From assembly GCA_020630175.1 (NCBI GenBank), contig JAHDBW010000002.1, positions 15,607-51,263 on the forward strand: DNA of 35,657 bases. The letters run 5' to 3'. Positions within the stretch are counted from its first letter, which is position 1, and every line of letters starts with the position of its first letter. Below, one piece after another: positions 11,908-20,703 of the stretch. The DNA comes from Anaerolineales bacterium. Lineage in GTDB: Bacteria; Chloroflexota; Anaerolineae; Anaerolineales; UBA6668. The position numbers were made by a program, and so were the translations under genes. The notes below the pieces were generated by a model, which did not search any database, was not told the origin of the DNA, and saw only the letters and a list, made by a program, of their open reading frames with translations.

Positions 11908-13467
11908 TTATTTACTTGTTGGTAGCTTGGGAACCGCAGGTGCGGGCTTGTTCATGCGTGCCGCTAAAGCAGCTTGCATCGCAATGCGATCATCCCAAGG
12001 ATATTCTGTCGTGCCGAAGCACATCGATTGTTCGTGCGCTTTTCCGCAAGCGAGGACTACATCACCGGGCTGTGCTTTTTGCACGGCAAACCGAATTGCG
12101 CTTTCCCGATCTGGAACACGCCAGAAGGTCTCGTTTTCGCGGCCTCCCATTTTAGTACATCCTGCGGCCATTTCCGAAAGAATTTCGGTTAGGGATTCTG
12201 TTCGTGGATCTTCAGCCGTTAGGATTGTGTAGTCGGCATGCTGCGCCGCAACTTCGGCCATCCAACGTCGCTTTTCAACATCACGCAGGCCAGCGGAGCC
12301 AAATGTCACAATTACTTTTCCATCTGTAAGCGCTTGCGCCGTTTTAAGAATGGCCTCTAATGATTTGGGCGTGTGCGCAAAGTCAACAATTGCAATGAAG
12401 TCTTGGCCTGCGTCAAAGAGCTGCATCCGTCCGGCAACGCCCGCTAACGCAGCAACGCCTTGCTGAATCGTTTCGACTGGCAAGCGCTGCGCCAGCCCAA
12501 CCCCAATGGCGGCCAAACTGTTTGAAACGTTAAATAAGCCAATTAGCTGCGTTTTGAAAGATCGCCAAGCACCATTTAGCGTGACATCAAATGTGGTGCC
12601 AGATGCTGAGAATTTTGCGTTACACCCATGCAACCGCGCCACTTGTGAAAGCCCGTAGCCAATCACTTCAACATCCGTCCGGTCGCGCAACTCGGTGTAG
12701 CTACTGTCATCACGATTGAGCAGCGCTAGCTTACGAACGCCCGGCTTGCGGTAACTTGAAGCAAGGCCTTCAAACAAAAGCGCCTTGGCATCAAAATACG
12801 CCTCACGCGAGCCATGATAGTCTAAATGTTCATGCGTGATGTTTGTCACAACGCCGACATCAAATTCACAGGCCGTGACCCGATGTTGCGCTAAGCCGTG
12901 CGAGGTTACTTCTAATACGCAGTGGGTTAGCCCAGCGGCAACCATTTGCGCTAAATACGCTTGTATCTCATGCGCATCTGGCGTGGTTACATGCAGTCCA
13001 GTATCTTGTTGCGTGTCGCCGATCACGGCATTCACGGTGCTAATCAGGCCCGTTTTGAGGCCGCCAGTATGCAGCACGCTATAAATCAGATTACAGGTTG
13101 TGGTTTTACCATCAGTGCCCGTTACGCCGATCATGACCAACTGACGCGCCGGAAAGTTATGCAAGGCTGCGGCTAGCCAAGCGAGGGCGGGTTTGGCATC
13201 TGCAATTTGCAAGTATGGAATGTCCAGCGAAGTTTCTAACTCTGCATACGGCTGTTCACCGACAACTGCCGCAGCGCCGGCTGCCACAGCATTGGCAATA
13301 AAACGATGTCCATCAACGCTTTCGCCTTTACGCGCTACAAACAACGTGCCTGCAGCCACCTGACGCGAATCATGGGTGACGCTTGCAATCTCTGGGTCAG
13401 CGGTGCTTGCGCTGCTGTTGAAGGTAACTTGTTCTGCAACTGCCTGTAACAGGTCTGATAATTTCAT
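11908..13467 (-). CDS. murE: UDP-N-acetylmuramoyl-tripeptide synthetase (MurE ligase)
   Basis: GVTGTDGKTTT, EVTSHGLAQHRV, TAEDPRTESLTEI; start taken at ATG 13467. Confidence 0.93.
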   Translation of the reverse strand: MKLSDLLQAVAEQVTFNSSASTADPEIASVTHDSRQVAAGTLFVARKGESVDGHRFIANAVAAGAAAVVGEQPYAELETSLDIPYLQIADAKPALAWLAAALHNFPARQLVMIGVTGTDGKTTTCNLIYSVLHTGGLKTGLISTVNAVIGDTQQDTGLHVTTPDAHEIQAYLAQMVAAGLTHCVLEVTSHGLAQHRVTACEFDVGVVTNITHEHLDYHGSREAYFDAKALLFEGLASSYRKPGVRKLALLNRDDSSYTELRDRTDVEVIGYGLSQVARLHGCNAKFSASGTTFDVTLNGAWRSFKTQLIGLFNVSNSLAAIGVGLAQRLPVETIQQGVAALAGVAGRMQLFDAGQDFIAIVDFAHTPKSLEAILKTAQALTDGKVIVTFGSAGLRDVEKRRWMAEVAAQHADYTILTAEDPRTESLTEILSEMAAGCTKMGGRENETFWRVPDRESAIRFAVQKAQPGDVVLACGKAHEQSMCFGTTEYPWDDRIAMQAALAARMNKPAPAVPKLPTSK

Positions 13468-13524
13468 AGTCAACAGTGTATAGCGTCCCTGCGCTTACAA
13501 CAAGGTTTTATAGGCGTTCATTAA

Positions 13525-13590: not shown

Positions 13591-14301
13591 TTAGCCAAGG
13601 CTACCAGCGAGGCTGTCCATTTTACGTTTTACTGAACCGTCGATTTCGCGGTCCCCTGAACGTACAACTAGACCGCCAAGCAGGCTTGGATCCACTTTGA
13701 ATGACACTGCATCAGCTTTCATACCAAGTTCTTTAGCAACTTTGCCTTGTTCTTTGGCACTAAGCGGTAATGCACTTACAACTTCAGCAGCTTCTGCACC
13801 TTCCAGTGCTGCAACGCCGCCTTCTACGCTTGAGAAGAAGTCGTCGATGAGTGCTTGTTGTTGTTTCTTGTCTAAGCTTGCGCCAACAACTTTGTTAGCA
13901 GCAGCCATAGCCAATGCGCTGATGTGAGGGCGGACGTCGTTCAACACGTTGTTACGTGCTTCTTCTAGGCCAGCTTCAGCAGCTGATTTGATATCAGCAG
14001 CTTCTTGTTCAGCAGCAGCTTTTAGATCAACACGAACTTTGTCAGCTTGTGCATTTGCTTCAGCGACAATCTTTGCGCGCTCTGCTTGAGCGTCAGCAAC
14101 GATTTTGCCTGCTTCTTTCTCGGCATTTGCGCGTGCTTCTTGTGCAACACGAGCATCTTCCAAGCCATCAGCGATGGTTTTCTTGCGCTTTTCCAACGCT
14201 TCTGTCAGTGGCTTCCAAGCAAGTGACAACACGAATGCAGCCAAGAGGAAGTTCAACAACTGAACCGTTAAGAAGCCAAGATTAATTCCTAATGCTTCCA
14301 T
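13591..14301 (-). CDS. atpF: ATP synthase Fo subunit b fused to a delta (OSCP) C-terminal domain
   Basis: N-terminal TM and charged helix (NFLLAAFVLSLAWKPLTEALEKRKKTIADGLEDA); C-terminal VDPSLLGGLVVRSGDREIDGSVKRKMDSLAGSL resembles delta C-terminus. Confidence 0.88.
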   Translation of the reverse strand: MEALGINLGFLTVQLLNFLLAAFVLSLAWKPLTEALEKRKKTIADGLEDARVAQEARANAEKEAGKIVADAQAERAKIVAEANAQADKVRVDLKAAAEQEAADIKSAAEAGLEEARNNVLNDVRPHISALAMAAANKVVGASLDKKQQQALIDDFFSSVEGGVAALEGAEAAEVVSALPLSAKEQGKVAKELGMKADAVSFKVDPSLLGGLVVRSGDREIDGSVKRKMDSLAGSLG

Positions 14302-14349: not shown

Positions 14350-14585
14350 CTAAGCAGCAAAGATGAGAATGAGTGAGGTCGCGAGTGCGTAAATAGCTAC
14401 AGCTTCAGCAAACGCAATTGCAAGAATCATGTTTTGTTGAATTAGTGGTGCTGCATCTGGGTTACGACCAATTGCTTGTACAGCGCCGCTACCGAGGATA
14501 CCAATCCCCAAGCCTGCACCGATAGCACTAACCATTGATAGACCTGCGCCTACAAATTTGAGACCTTCAGCGATGTTACCTTCCA
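14350..14585 (-). CDS. atpE: ATP synthase Fo subunit c
   Basis: MEGNIAEGLKFVGAGLSMVSAIGAGLGIGILGSGAVQAIGRNPDAAPLIQQNMILAIAFAEAVAIYALATSLILIFAA; SD GGAGG upstream; track ORF over-extends to 14658. Confidence 0.95.
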
Positions 14586-14683
14586 TTTTGAGTGTCCTCC
14601 AGGAATTATTTGAGTAAGTTTTTTTGTTTTTTAATATTGATCTGGGCGCGTACAACACCCAGATCAGGAATTTTCAATTTCAA

Positions 14684-15772
14684 TTAGTGGTGTGCGTGAG
14701 TGGCTTGCGCCATGAACACCAACGTTAGAATTGCGAATACGTAAGCTTGGATTGAACCAACAAATGTTTCGAGCAAGAAGATACCGCCCGGCAAAATGAC
14801 TGGAACAAGCACACCGATAATCGCGAGTAGCAAACCACCCGCAAAGATATTACCGAATAGACGGAAGCTAAATGACAAGATCTTTGAGACTTCCGAGACG
14901 ATTTCGAGCAGGCCGACCGCAAAGTCGATTTTGCCCATGCCTGGTGAGCTAAGTGCTGGGATATTGATGAACTTTTGGAAGTAACCAATCCCTAGCGCTT
15001 GCACCCCAATCACTTGCACCATCACCATGACAACAATTGCCAGAGCGAACGTGAAGTTCATGTCAGTTGCAAGACCACGGAACCATGGGATAACTTCACA
15101 CAGGTGCTCACAGATTTTGCCAGTGTCTTCAGCAAGTACTGCACTCGCCAAAACGCCACCGGTTTCAACTGCACCATGATCATCGCCATGGTATAGCATA
15201 TCGTCTGTAACGCGAATGCCTTCACCATCGAGAGCATACACATTGCCAAACAAGTTTTGCGCATCGTACCCAGTTAGGCCCGCTTTGTGAACTTCTACAA
15301 AGTTCCCAATTGCTTCATAGCCTGGCACCAATTTACTCATGTTGGCGAACCAAACAACGAAGAAAATAGCGATAACCCAGTAGAAGATTTTCTTGGTGTA
15401 TTTCCCACCAACTTCGCTGGTTTGGTTCCACCAATATTCAATGATTGCTTCCCAAGCGTTGTACCAACCTGAGGGAGCGCTGGTTGCTGCAGTCTTCGCG
15501 CCGCGACGAATGGTAAGCACTAACATCACGATCAAAAGATCAACAATGATCATAGCCGTGTGTGTATTTACCAATGGCACGCCAAAAAATGACTTGATAC
15601 CAAAGATGTTGATTTTTTCAGCTGGCAGAATAACCGCTGGACTGCGTGGTGCCCATATACCACCAATCACAACTGCGGCAACCCCCAGTAGAATCAACGC
15701 AAGCATGGCAATAGTTCTACCATTGCCGCCTGATGATTGATCTGTTGTGGACGTATGACTGTGATCACTCAC
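14684..15772 (-). CDS. atpB: ATP synthase Fo subunit a, with extended internal loop
   Basis: ILSFSFRLFGNIFAGGLLL conserved Arg helix; 362 aa. Confidence 0.93.
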   Translation of the reverse strand: MSDHSHTSTTDQSSGGNGRTIAMLALILLGVAAVVIGGIWAPRSPAVILPAEKINIFGIKSFFGVPLVNTHTAMIIVDLLIVMLVLTIRRGAKTAATSAPSGWYNAWEAIIEYWWNQTSEVGGKYTKKIFYWVIAIFFVVWFANMSKLVPGYEAIGNFVEVHKAGLTGYDAQNLFGNVYALDGEGIRVTDDMLYHGDDHGAVETGGVLASAVLAEDTGKICEHLCEVIPWFRGLATDMNFTFALAIVVMVMVQVIGVQALGIGYFQKFINIPALSSPGMGKIDFAVGLLEIVSEVSKILSFSFRLFGNIFAGGLLLAIIGVLVPVILPGGIFLLETFVGSIQAYVFAILTLVFMAQATHAHH

Positions 15773-16088
15773 TTAGAGTGTCCTCCTGATCTGAATTTAA
15801 ATTTGTTTGATTTTGTTTTTTTTGATTGACCGCAATTTGCGTTACTGCGCGCATTGCAATCTTATATACCAACCACATATGTAGTGGTAGAGATATCAAT
15901 ATACCAGCCAATGTAAACATTGGCTTTGTGCCGAGTGTGCGATCGAGAATAATCCCTAACGCCAAGCCCGCACCAATAATGATGACAGACATCCCAGCAA
16001 TTTGCCCCATCACACCAGTTACTTCAGGCCCAATAAGTAGGCCTTGCATGTAACTATTTTCTGGTTGATTAGGTTTTTCTTCGCTCAT
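15765..16088 (-). CDS. AtpI/AtpZ-like ATP synthase-associated membrane protein
   Basis: Small two-TM protein directly upstream of atpB; GAGLALGIILDRTLGTKPMFTLAGILISLPLHMW. Confidence 0.75.
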   Translation of the reverse strand: MSEEKPNQPENSYMQGLLIGPEVTGVMGQIAGMSVIIIGAGLALGIILDRTLGTKPMFTLAGILISLPLHMWLVYKIAMRAVTQIAVNQKKQNQTNLNSDQEDTLSE

Positions 16089-16146: not shown

Positions 16147-17616
16147 TTAGAACAAACTTGAAGCGCCAGCGATGGCCCAGTTATACCAAGGTGTTGCCGC
16201 AGTCCCCAGAACAATTACGCTGATGGTCAATGCCACCATTGCAATTTGATATGGGCGGGTAATGCTGATTTTGCTAGCGCCTTCTGGTGCTGGATCAACA
16301 TAAACAACTTTCATCACAATCAGATAGTAGTACAACGCCACAAGCGCATTGATTGCACCCACAATTGCTAACCAGTAAAGGCCCGCATCTACAACAACTT
16401 TGAAGATGAAGAACTTCCCTAAGAAGCCAGCCAATGGTGGAATACCTGCCAGTGAGAGGAAGGCAACGAGCATCATGTGTGCCAGGTAAGGTGAGCGGCG
16501 GCTCATGCCCGCATAGTCTTTGATTTCATCAGACCCAGCTGCGCGGGCAAATACGATAATGATCGCAAATGCAAGCAGGTTGGTCGCGATGTAGGTCATC
16601 AGGTAGAACGTTGCAGCCGAAACACTTTGTTCAGGTTGGCTTTCAAATGCGACAAATGCCATCAGGGTATACCCTGCGTGAGCAATTGAAGAGTAGGCCA
16701 GCAAACGTTTGATGTTTGTTTGGGCTAGCGCAACCAAGTTACCAATAGTAGTTGTGACTGCGGCAATTGCCATCATCAATGGCAGCCAGCCCGCAACGCC
16801 ACTATTAGTGGAAAGCGCAATGATAAAGACCCGGATTAGAACGATGAACCCGGCAGTCTTTGATGCCGTTGAGACAAACGCTGTAATTGGCGTTGGTGCC
16901 CCTTCGTATACATCTGGTGTCCAGAAATGGAATGGGAAGGCAGAGATTTTGAAGCCAATCCCGACCAAGATCATCACCGCGATACCAATTAGCGTTACAA
17001 ATGGAACATTGCCAGCGCCTAGGGCTTCTGCAATGCCGTACAAGTTTGTGTGACCAGTGAAACCGTAAAGCAGGCTAAACCCAAACAGCATGACCGTTGA
17101 GGTGACTGCGCCAAACAAGAAGTATTTCAGACCAGATTCTGCTGAACGATCACTGTTGAGCAAGAAGCCCGTGAGTGCGTATGCAGAGATACTTGTCGTT
17201 TCAATTGCCAAGTACAGCATGATCAGGTCAGAGGCAATTGCCATGAAGTTCATGCCAATTACTGCTGCGATCAATACCGCGTAGAAATCACCACGTTTGC
17301 CCAAGCCTTTGACATCCATTGTGATCAGGGCTGTAATTGCACCTGCAACCAAGAACATCATGCGGAAAACAAACCCTAGCATGTCGTGGCGGATGGTCCC
17401 ACCAAACAGTAGTTTAGGGTCGCCCATAGGCAGTGAAAAACCAATTCCAATGAACATCGCAGCCATCAAACCGATAGCAGTGACATAGCCCATCATGCGG
17501 CGGCTTTCGCCTTTCTGCACCACGTCCATAAACATGACGAGCGCAGCAACTGCGATGAGTACTATCTCAGGCAGGATGGCTAGGAAATGCGCAGCTTCGA
17601 AAGTTGTAAAATCCAC
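16147..17616 (-). CDS. nuoN: NADH-quinone oxidoreductase subunit N
   Basis: FKISAFPFHFWTPDVYEGAPTPITAFVSTASKTAGF; position at end of nuo run. Confidence 0.95.
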   Translation of the reverse strand: MDFTTFEAAHFLAILPEIVLIAVAALVMFMDVVQKGESRRMMGYVTAIGLMAAMFIGIGFSLPMGDPKLLFGGTIRHDMLGFVFRMMFLVAGAITALITMDVKGLGKRGDFYAVLIAAVIGMNFMAIASDLIMLYLAIETTSISAYALTGFLLNSDRSAESGLKYFLFGAVTSTVMLFGFSLLYGFTGHTNLYGIAEALGAGNVPFVTLIGIAVMILVGIGFKISAFPFHFWTPDVYEGAPTPITAFVSTASKTAGFIVLIRVFIIALSTNSGVAGWLPLMMAIAAVTTTIGNLVALAQTNIKRLLAYSSIAHAGYTLMAFVAFESQPEQSVSAATFYLMTYIATNLLAFAIIIVFARAAGSDEIKDYAGMSRRSPYLAHMMLVAFLSLAGIPPLAGFLGKFFIFKVVVDAGLYWLAIVGAINALVALYYYLIVMKVVYVDPAPEGASKISITRPYQIAMVALTISVIVLGTAATPWYNWAIAGASSLF

Positions 17617-17619
17617 AGC

Positions 17620-19125
17620 TTATGCTCCAAGGACCGCCATTACGCTGTCAACACCAGTCTTGATTACGGTATCCATCCAAGCAGGATAGAAGCCCAAGGC
17701 TAGCAATGACACCAGTAGGATGACGATTGCAGTTCGATCTTGCCAACGGATTGGCGTGAGTTCGTGTTCAATTTTTTCTGGGATCGGGCCGAAGAAGACC
17801 GCGCTAACAGCACGGATAATGTAAGCCGCTGTAATCACAATTGCGAGTGCAGAAATGATCGCGATCCAAGCGTAGTAATTTGCGATAAAGTCTGGGCCTT
17901 GCACACCTGCGCGCCAAGCACCCATAAAGATTGGTAATTCAGCAACGAAGCCAGAGAACAATGGCATCCCCATTGAAACCAAACCACCAATGATGAAGGC
18001 AACCCCAACCATTGGGAGTTTCTTCATTACACCACCCAGCTCTGGGATCATGCGGGTGTGAGCGCGGTCATAAACCATCCCGATACATGAGAAGAAGAGC
18101 GCCGTCATTGCCCCGTGAGAGAACATTTGCAGCCCAGCACCGGTCAGACCAATTTCGTTCATGGTTGCGATACCAAGTACCACCAACCCCATGTGCGAAA
18201 CAGAAGAGTAACCAATCATGTACTTCAAGTCTTTACGCGTCATTGCGATGAGTGACCCGTAAACAACGTTTACGAAGGCCAGTACCACCACATAAGGTAG
18301 CCAGAACTTTGCACCTTCAGGCAGGAGTACAACCCCAACCCGCAGTGCAGCGTAAGCACCCAGCTTCATCAATACCCCAGCATGGAACATAGACACTGCC
18401 GTCGGCGCTGCCACGTGACCAACCGGGCTCCAGTTGTGGAACGGGAACATCCCCGCCAACACAATGAAACCGATAAAGACAAATGGGAACCAAGTAATTT
18501 GGAATTCGCGGGTAAATTCGGCTTGCTCTTGAATAATGAACATGTCGAATGTGCCAAGACCAGATGCTGAATACATTGCCAGCGCACCAATCAGTGCGAA
18601 GAGCGACCCCACCACAAGGAAGAGGGTCAGCTTCATGGCTGCGTATTCGCGGGTCTTTTTCCAACCCCACATGGCAATCATGAGGTACATTGGGAACACT
18701 GCCACTTCATAGAAGAAGAACAGTGTGAACATATCTTGTGCAACGAACACACCCCACACACCCATCGCTAAGAAGAAGAGTAGTGCAAAGAATTCGCGTG
18801 GACGGTCTTCAATGCCCCAACTGATGAGCACACCGGTAACCATCACAATCCCGGTCAACAACACCATTGGCAGGCTTAGCCCATCAACAGCAACGATGTA
18901 GCTAATGCCGACAGCTGGGATCCAGTCAAAGCGATCTTCAAATTGGTACCCGCCAAGCTCGATGTCATAGCTGAAATACACAATGATAGAAAGCACCATA
19001 CAGACAATCGCCGCAATTAGCGAGGTCCAGCGGATGAGTTCTTTTTTATCTTCTGGGAAGGCTAGCAACGCTAAGCCAACAACGCCCGGAAGAAAAGTAA
19101 TTACTGAAAGAATTGGGAAGTCCAT
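17620..19125 (-). CDS. nuoM: NADH-quinone oxidoreductase subunit M, divergent paralogue
   Basis: FFYEVAVFPMYLMIAMWG, MFPFHNWSPVGHVAAPTAVSMFHAGVLMKLGAY. Confidence 0.92.
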   Translation of the reverse strand: MDFPILSVITFLPGVVGLALLAFPEDKKELIRWTSLIAAIVCMVLSIIVYFSYDIELGGYQFEDRFDWIPAVGISYIVAVDGLSLPMVLLTGIVMVTGVLISWGIEDRPREFFALLFFLAMGVWGVFVAQDMFTLFFFYEVAVFPMYLMIAMWGWKKTREYAAMKLTLFLVVGSLFALIGALAMYSASGLGTFDMFIIQEQAEFTREFQITWFPFVFIGFIVLAGMFPFHNWSPVGHVAAPTAVSMFHAGVLMKLGAYAALRVGVVLLPEGAKFWLPYVVVLAFVNVVYGSLIAMTRKDLKYMIGYSSVSHMGLVVLGIATMNEIGLTGAGLQMFSHGAMTALFFSCIGMVYDRAHTRMIPELGGVMKKLPMVGVAFIIGGLVSMGMPLFSGFVAELPIFMGAWRAGVQGPDFIANYYAWIAIISALAIVITAAYIIRAVSAVFFGPIPEKIEHELTPIRWQDRTAIVILLVSLLALGFYPAWMDTVIKTGVDSVMAVLGA

Positions 19126-19131
19126 TAAAGC

Positions 19132-20703
19132 CTATCCAAAAAGGTGCACAATTGCGTAATTGATCATATTCGCGATACTCGCTGGCCAGACACCGATCAA
19201 CAGCATCAGAACTAGCAAGGGCGCCATTACCGCAATTTCGCGCACGTTCATTTCCATGTTGTGATCAGCCCAATGCGGATTGATTGGACCGTGCAAGACT
19301 TTACGAATACCTTTCAATACGTAAGCACCAGTCATAAACAAACCGATCATGCTTAGCGCGGTATAGAAAGTAAAGATTGGCCAAGATCCACGGACAATTG
19401 CGAATTCGCCAACGAAGCCGTTCAGACCTGGCAACCCAAGTGATGCCATTGAAGAGAAGATCAGCATCCCACCGTAAATCGGTGCGTATTGCCAGATCCC
19501 ACCGCCAAGTTCATCAAGGTTGCGCGTGTGGGCACGTTCATACACCACACCAACTAAGAAGAACATTGCCGCAGCTGAAAGGCCGTGGTTGAACATTTGA
19601 ATAACTGCACCCGCGCCAGCCAAGGCCAACGTGGTTGGGTCAACAGCGTTTCCGGCAGCCCAAGCAACAACCGCCAACCCAAGAACAACAAAGCCCATGT
19701 GATTGACTGAAGAATATGCAACCAAGCGCTTGAAGTCTGTTTGACCGTAAGCAGAGTACGCCGCCAAGATGATTGAAAGCATCCCGAGCAGGGCGATGAT
19801 TGGCGCAGCGGCCGCCGATTGTTCTGGGAACAATGGGATAACCAAGCGTAGGAACCCGTAAGCACCCAGCTTCAGCAAAACGCCAGCCAAGATCATTGAT
19901 CCGGCGGTTGGTGCTTCAGTGTGTGCATCTGGTAGCCATGTATGGAACGGGAAGAGCGGCACTTTGATTGCGAACGCAACAAAGAAGGCCCAGAAGGCAA
20001 CCGTCTTGACTGTGCTTGCAGACGCAAAGTTCAAGAATGTTTCATTTGACGTTGGCCACGTTGCGTACAACGTTGGCAGGTCAAAGGTGCCTTGGGTAAT
20101 CCCAATAAGCTGAATGGCGAGCAACAAGCCCAAGCCAGCAGCCATGGTGTAGATCATAAATTTGAAAGACGCGTATTCGCGGGCTGGAACAATCCGACCG
20201 CGGCTAAGTTCGCGTTTGCCTTTCGGGCTACCCCATTGATTGATGAGGAAGTACATCGGCACCAAACCAACTTCGTAGAATGCGAAGAAGAGCAACAAGT
20301 CCAATGAAAGGAACACGCCCAGCGTACCCACTTGCAAAATGAAGAACAAGGCCATGAAGCCGCGAATGCGATCAACATTGAAAGAAGCCAGAATACACAA
20401 TGGCACTAGCAAGTTTGCCAGCAAGACCATTGGCACGCTCAGGCCGTCTACGCCAAGGTGGAAGCCTGCGTTTACAGACGGATACCAGCGTGCGTTGACT
20501 TCAAATTGGAAGCCGCCAGCAACAAAGTCGTAGTTTGCCCACAAATAGAGGGTAAGCAACAACGGAATGAGGCTAAATGCAAACGCAATGCGTGCAATTG
20601 TGCCTTTATTGTTAGGAGCCAACATCACCGCTGTCATGCCAAGTAATGGCGTGAACAGGATGAGCATCAGCAAGTTATTGTTGATAAATTCCATAATCGT
20701 CAA
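19132..20703 (-). CDS. nuoM: NADH-quinone oxidoreductase subunit M, canonical paralogue
   Basis: FYEVGLVPMYFLINQWG, AIKVPLFPFHTWLPDAHTEAPTAGSMILAGVLLKLGAYG. Confidence 0.95.
   Translation of the reverse strand: MTIMEFINNNLLMLILFTPLLGMTAVMLAPNNKGTIARIAFAFSLIPLLLTLYLWANYDFVAGGFQFEVNARWYPSVNAGFHLGVDGLSVPMVLLANLLVPLCILASFNVDRIRGFMALFFILQVGTLGVFLSLDLLLFFAFYEVGLVPMYFLINQWGSPKGKRELSRGRIVPAREYASFKFMIYTMAAGLGLLLAIQLIGITQGTFDLPTLYATWPTSNETFLNFASASTVKTVAFWAFFVAFAIKVPLFPFHTWLPDAHTEAPTAGSMILAGVLLKLGAYGFLRLVIPLFPEQSAAAAPIIALLGMLSIILAAYSAYGQTDFKRLVAYSSVNHMGFVVLGLAVVAWAAGNAVDPTTLALAGAGAVIQMFNHGLSAAAMFFLVGVVYERAHTRNLDELGGGIWQYAPIYGGMLIFSSMASLGLPGLNGFVGEFAIVRGSWPIFTFYTALSMIGLFMTGAYVLKGIRKVLHGPINPHWADHNMEMNVREIAVMAPLLVLMLLIGVWPASIANMINYAIVHLFG

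Follow-up and report, generated by a model that had tools for sequence, protein, structure and literature searches.

How is the F1 head of an ATP synthase held in place when the only subunit delta sequence in a genome is its C-terminal domain (CTD), joined to the end of subunit b? An open reading frame of 236 amino acids raises this question in the window, by which we mean the whole stretch of 35,657 nucleotides of Anaerolineales DNA that was analyzed. Attachment of F1 to its stator is ascribed to the N-terminal domain (NTD) of delta. A whole order, with cultured isolates, that lacks a detectable delta-NTD is thus a natural test of the one-stalk rule, and it bears on whether the H+/ATP ratio evolves by stalk number instead of c-ring size and on the origin of A/V-like and N-like stators from F-type ones. 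In engineered enzymes, loss of the delta-NTD is the change that allows additional stalks and proton channels, according to PMC12229609.

A subunit b that ends in the C-terminal domain of delta

The fused gene lies among the Fo genes, all on the minus strand:

11908..13473 (-), murE-like gene, conserved neighbor downstream of the fusion gene (61 of 80 named loci)
13591..14301 (-), b-deltaCTD fusion of 236 aa (atpF joined to the C-terminal domain of atpH)
13594..13797 (-), delta/OSCP CTD at residues ~169-236 (Pfam OSCP, CTD identity to class delta, fold match)
13885..14271 (-), subunit b part, residues 11-139, membrane helix and dimerizing coiled coil (Pfam ATP-synt_B; model helix 8-139)
14350..14586 (-), subunit c, atpE (Pfam ATP-synt_C, 5.5e-15)
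14684..15772 (-), subunit a, atpB, 362 aa, enlarged (Pfam ATP-synt_A, 3.6e-34; closest solved relative 9itj_T)
15765..16085 (-), AtpI/gene-1-like small membrane protein (Pfam ATPase_gene1, 5e-7)
16147..17616 (-), nuoN, conserved neighbor upstream of the Fo genes (Pfam Proton_antipo_M; 68 of 80 named loci)

The protein begins as an ordinary subunit b, with Pfam ATP-synt_B covering residues 11-139 (E 7e-20) and the F-type subunit b model TIGR01144 satisfied over residues 14-158 (92.8 bits, cut-off 65.5). The first-pass annotation had proposed that its tail is the CTD of delta without the NTD, and the profile search it called for found OSCP at residues 143-235 (E 6e-16), confined to positions 76-172 of the 172 in the profile. 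The interval that it singled out, 13591-13800, corresponds to residues ~168-236, that is, to the CTD itself. Matches of the same protein to A/V-type subunit E (26.3, above the cut-off of 24.2) and to FliH (19.9, just below the cut-off of 24.1) are expected, since a b-like coiled coil is followed by a delta-CTD fold. In an AlphaFold model built with 50 relatives (mean pLDDT 79.5), helices at 8-139 and 145-161 precede a strand-helix-strand-strand-strand-helix arrangement at 172-235, so that the long helix leads straight into the delta-CTD fold without a six-helix bundle between them; pLDDT is lower in the linker and CTD, where the blocks are mostly at a moderate 56-79. The fold of the model matches delta/OSCP chains, FliH of the FliH-FliI complex (5b0o), and a 70-residue piece of Chloroflexus aurantiacus delta (9itk_W, TM by target 0.67). 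The protein is thus confirmed as a subunit b that ends in the delta/OSCP CTD and lacks the delta-NTD. The mycobacterial b-delta fusion (PRK13428/NF009961, 445 aa) likewise carries b and delta on one polypeptide but, as the first-pass annotation had pointed out, it keeps a full delta, NTD included, and is accompanied by a second ordinary b; the window protein reaches 74.8 bits against NF009961 (cut-off 328), and its genome has one b gene.

The fused reading frame is the sole OSCP match in its own genome, a draft (91% complete, 500 contigs), and the search for atpH returned no full-length delta. We extended the search to 61 genomes, comprising this one and 60 others related at the level of the order or closer. 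An OSCP match was present in 52 of them, almost always within a reading frame some 240-280 aa long, single-contig genomes included, and nearly always at profile positions ~103-172, which correspond to the delta-CTD. Recurrence in nearly all of these 52 genomes puts the architecture far beyond chance. A scan of named genomes identified the group carrying the fusion as Anaerolineales. The four named strains Leptolinea sp. HRD-7 (complete), Thermanaerothrix daxensis, Leptolinea tardivitalis, and Anaerolinea thermolimosa have no significant OSCP match but the fused gene, the only other match being at chance level (E=0.13). Across about 50 Anaerolineales genomes, no OSCP match other than the fused gene belongs to the main enzyme, a few genomes adding an N-ATPase copy, and each fused genome tested had a single b gene over the cut-off. 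No A-type ATPase (PF01992) was matched in 19 genomes, including our own. The fused enzyme is therefore the main rotary ATPase of the cell, a separate delta with both NTD and CTD, as in F-type enzymes, was not found, and the fusion is a real, conserved variant of order-wide occurrence.

The Fo genes are ordered atpI-a-c-b and in most of the 80 named loci are flanked by nuoN and murE; in not one of the 80 does alpha come closer than about 6 kb. In our genome a different contig carries the F1 genes, arranged alpha-gamma-beta-epsilon; the gene that precedes them is unrelated, and no delta adjoins alpha. In subunit c, the residue next after the ion-binding Glu is Ala rather than Ser/Thr, which suggests H+ coupling. 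Subunit a is about 90 aa longer than that of Escherichia coli and has a large hydrophilic insert; it is also enlarged in class relatives with a full delta. Farther along the same strand, by eye, two adjacent NuoM-like proteins (17620-19125 and 19132-20703, minus strand) lie between nuoN and a nuoL-like gene, and the window possibly encodes a complex I with duplicated NuoM.

Attachment of F1 and the number of stalks

We consider it probable that b-deltaCTD is the stator of the main H+-type F1Fo enzyme of Anaerolineales and that its CTD docks on the N-terminal helix of alpha, a reading that leaves the number of stalks open. Compared with a canonical enzyme, delta would have lost the six-helix domain at its N terminus, which caps the top of F1, and its CTD would have become the C terminus of subunit b, so that a single gene would make the whole peripheral stalk. 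Since b is encoded once, a b homodimer would carry two delta-CTDs, which might pair as in FliH or leave one idle. F1 would then be held by a delta-CTD on the retained helix of one alpha. We infer this most likely contact from two observations. In Bacillus PS3, PMC12229609 describes one alpha N-terminal region touching the delta-CTD while the other two touch the NTD, and the alpha N-terminal helix is kept, recognizably, in all groups (I..DLQKQIE.F.P in fused genomes versus I...LK.QIE.FEAP). The proposed docking would thus reuse a contact already present at one alpha of ordinary F-type enzymes and would resemble the hold of FliH on FliI. We relied on this retention of sequence rather than on the hydrophobic moment, which for the alpha helix comes close to the 95% point of random 13-mers, falls below that point in some groups, and is only 0.28 for the E. 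coli segment.

An insert of ~50 aa also follows the LERAA motif of alpha (L003:3933-5591 in our genome) in 48 of 54 rows with a fused stator versus 1 of 29 others. We considered this insert as a compensating feature and rejected it: the fused rows can be a single clade (p-AU 0.84), giving at most two independent pairs, and the insert is therefore no evidence of co-adaptation.

Several known systems share parts of the proposed arrangement. FliH of flagellar export and A/V-type subunit E combine a coiled coil with a CTD of the same fold that grips the N terminus of an ATPase, but they are not membrane anchored, and the FliH match is below the Pfam cut-off. The engineered PS3 enzyme deltaDeltaN-alpha FoF1 (9jc1) has its delta-NTD deleted and the CTD covalently joined to a partner; there the CTD is on alpha and multiple stalks have been shown, whereas the Anaerolineales CTD is on b. 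PMC12229609 also describes a natural delta-alpha fusion in Acidaminococcus fermentans, in which the CTD is again tied to a partner, although that partner is alpha rather than b, and in the text consulted it names no b-delta case.

The number of stalks is where two readings of this anatomy meet. One, to which we give an even chance and which overlaps with the stator arrangement preferred above, is that the enzyme, like ordinary F-type enzymes, has a single stalk, in which the two delta-CTDs of the b dimer pair in one FliH-like head. The FliH/FliI chains (5b0o) among the fold matches and the Pfam scores for FliH and for A/V-type subunit E are consistent with such a head. However, the domain reported to limit stalk number is absent here, and the same-phylum enzyme of C. 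aurantiacus appears from its PDB chain counts to have two stalks. As described in PMC12229609, PS3 FoF1 with the delta-NTD removed and the CTD fused to alpha remained coupled, assembled with as many as three stalks and a subunits, and reached an H+/ATP ratio of 5.8, from which it was concluded that the delta-NTD limits the number of stalks to one. The C. aurantiacus entries (PDB 9itj-9itu), the closest solved relatives of the window a, b, and gamma subunits, contain on average two a, four b, two delta, and one gamma chain each; the stoichiometry, and with it the two implied stalks, comes from these chain counts only. One modelled delta chain in that enzyme is a 70-residue piece that matches the CTD. 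Unlike the Anaerolineales protein, C. aurantiacus delta is a separate protein of 157 aa, not fused to b, whose NTD is short by only about 16 residues at its start.

Once the delta-NTD is gone from the threefold axis, no known constraint keeps the head to one stalk. Together, the PS3 result and the C. aurantiacus chain counts make a natural multistalk enzyme in Anaerolineales credible, and we regard it as plausible but no more than that. That the enzyme is multistalk and that delta-NTD loss, repeated in the class, is its genomic signature is a tentative reading to which we give somewhat less than even weight.

A separate cap, an N-ATPase, or an assembly gap

The first-pass annotation had offered two ways out for an enzyme without a fused NTD: a separate delta-N protein or a different contact between stator and F1. 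A highly diverged NTD-like or unrelated separate protein that caps F1 in trans is, in our view, unlikely. Very diverged helical proteins do escape sequence searches, and one relative has a subthreshold partial NTD match in a 279-aa frame (E 0.0036, positions 21-75). Yet a profile of the NTD alone, for which 18 deltas of the class served as input, recovered all 20 full deltas of the class that were fetched and detected the domain in all 5 control genomes (1e-18 to 1e-35), while in our genome and the other NTD-less genomes tested it returned only partial chance-level matches, the best being the one just cited. No separate delta-NTD gene was found beside alpha in the fused genomes examined; what lies upstream of alpha varies and, judged by eye, looks like unrelated housekeeping functions (M42 peptidase, RuvA, ProC, and BirA), with no conserved NTD candidate. 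Moreover, the delta-CTD-only genes of the class, which are directly between b and alpha, leave no space for an NTD. Of the two suggestions, the separate protein thus fared poorly, and we favor a different stator-F1 contact.

That the enzyme is an N-ATPase is very improbable. N-ATPases share the idea of a b-deltaCTD stator, having a long b with a delta-CTD/E-like C terminus and no delta-NTD (PMC11738941, PMC5706428). The window gene shows their trait of a delta "absent or fused with b," it has a weak match to TIGR03321 (56.7 bits), and ProAD labels the sole rotary ATPase of the Chloroflexota genus T78 as H+-N-type. Against this, every alt_F1F0 (N-type) cut-off tested was failed, both for Fo (b, 56.7 bits against 224.7; c, 34 against 131; a, 88.6 against 302) and for F1 (alpha, 557 against 750.5; beta, 569 against 752; gamma, 92 against 282), whereas alpha, beta, gamma, and epsilon passed those of the F-type equivalogs (TIGR00962, 730.6 against 484; TIGR01039, 763 against 463; TIGR01146, 281 against 194; TIGR01216, 117.5 against 67, respectively). 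We therefore take the enzyme to be the main F-type synthase. The N-ATPase operon order, beta-epsilon-Q-R-a-c-b-alpha-gamma, is also absent, the Fo and F1 genes being split. In the alpha tree, N-ATPase rows split off with 100% support, and the window's alpha groups with other Anaerolineales (31 rows, 97-98%). Finally, genomes of family f13 encode both enzymes: second OSCP matches there and in G018 belong to N-ATPases and adjoin an alpha gene. In G018, G028, G040, and G052, the fused F-type enzyme occurs together with an N-ATPase, which is separate and has a fused b of its own. The b part of the window protein is 37% identical to the best F-type b of the class versus 26% to N-ATPase b, and its CTD is 49% identical to the best class delta versus 38% to N-ATPase b; the fusion therefore most likely arose inside the F-type lineage.

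A normal atpH missing from the draft assembly, with the tail being generic b sequence, is an explanation that finished genomes refute, despite the incomplete and fragmented state of our own, since the tail is a strong OSCP match and the outcome is the same in the single-contig genomes G013, G040, G059, G226, G069, and G238 and in Leptolinea sp. HRD-7.

Although b-deltaCTD stators are already known in N-ATPases (PMC5706428, PMC11738941), we found no paper on b-deltaCTD as the standard F-type stator of an order, in a search that was thin on subscription journals and preprints. The Anaerolineae-class draft genome RBG-9 was reported as missing delta (PMC3971608), which the fusion probably accounts for.

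Loss of the delta N-terminal domain across the class

We surveyed 200 genomes of the class, judging the state of delta from the listed entries. Among these, that state is uniform within families, some having a full delta and others b-deltaCTD; other classes of the phylum retain a full-length delta. Twenty loci with a full delta are contiguous (a-c-b-delta-alpha-gamma). In four further families of the class, delta is only 84-121 aa long, consisting of the CTD and a short leader, and is encoded directly between b and alpha:

L104:2687-2941, L087:2708-3064, L097:2265-2624, and L102:2451-2816, free-standing delta-CTD-only proteins of 84-121 aa, between b and alpha

Two of these CTD-only families, f51 and f41, are nested in the full-delta clade of the alpha tree (98%), and a single clade for all fused rows is compatible with that tree, as given above. 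Given class relatives with a full delta or with the delta-CTD alone, the NTD appears to have been lost more than once, and the simplest reading would be that fusion happened once and that the NTD was lost independently at least twice more. The free-standing CTD-only families are possible further candidates for multistalk enzymes. Elsewhere in the phylum, families f71, f81, f104, and f106 have markedly weaker delta matches, several of the listed cases starting at OSCP position 38-55. These deltas resemble the shortened delta of C. aurantiacus, and it is possible that they belong to other two-stalk enzymes.
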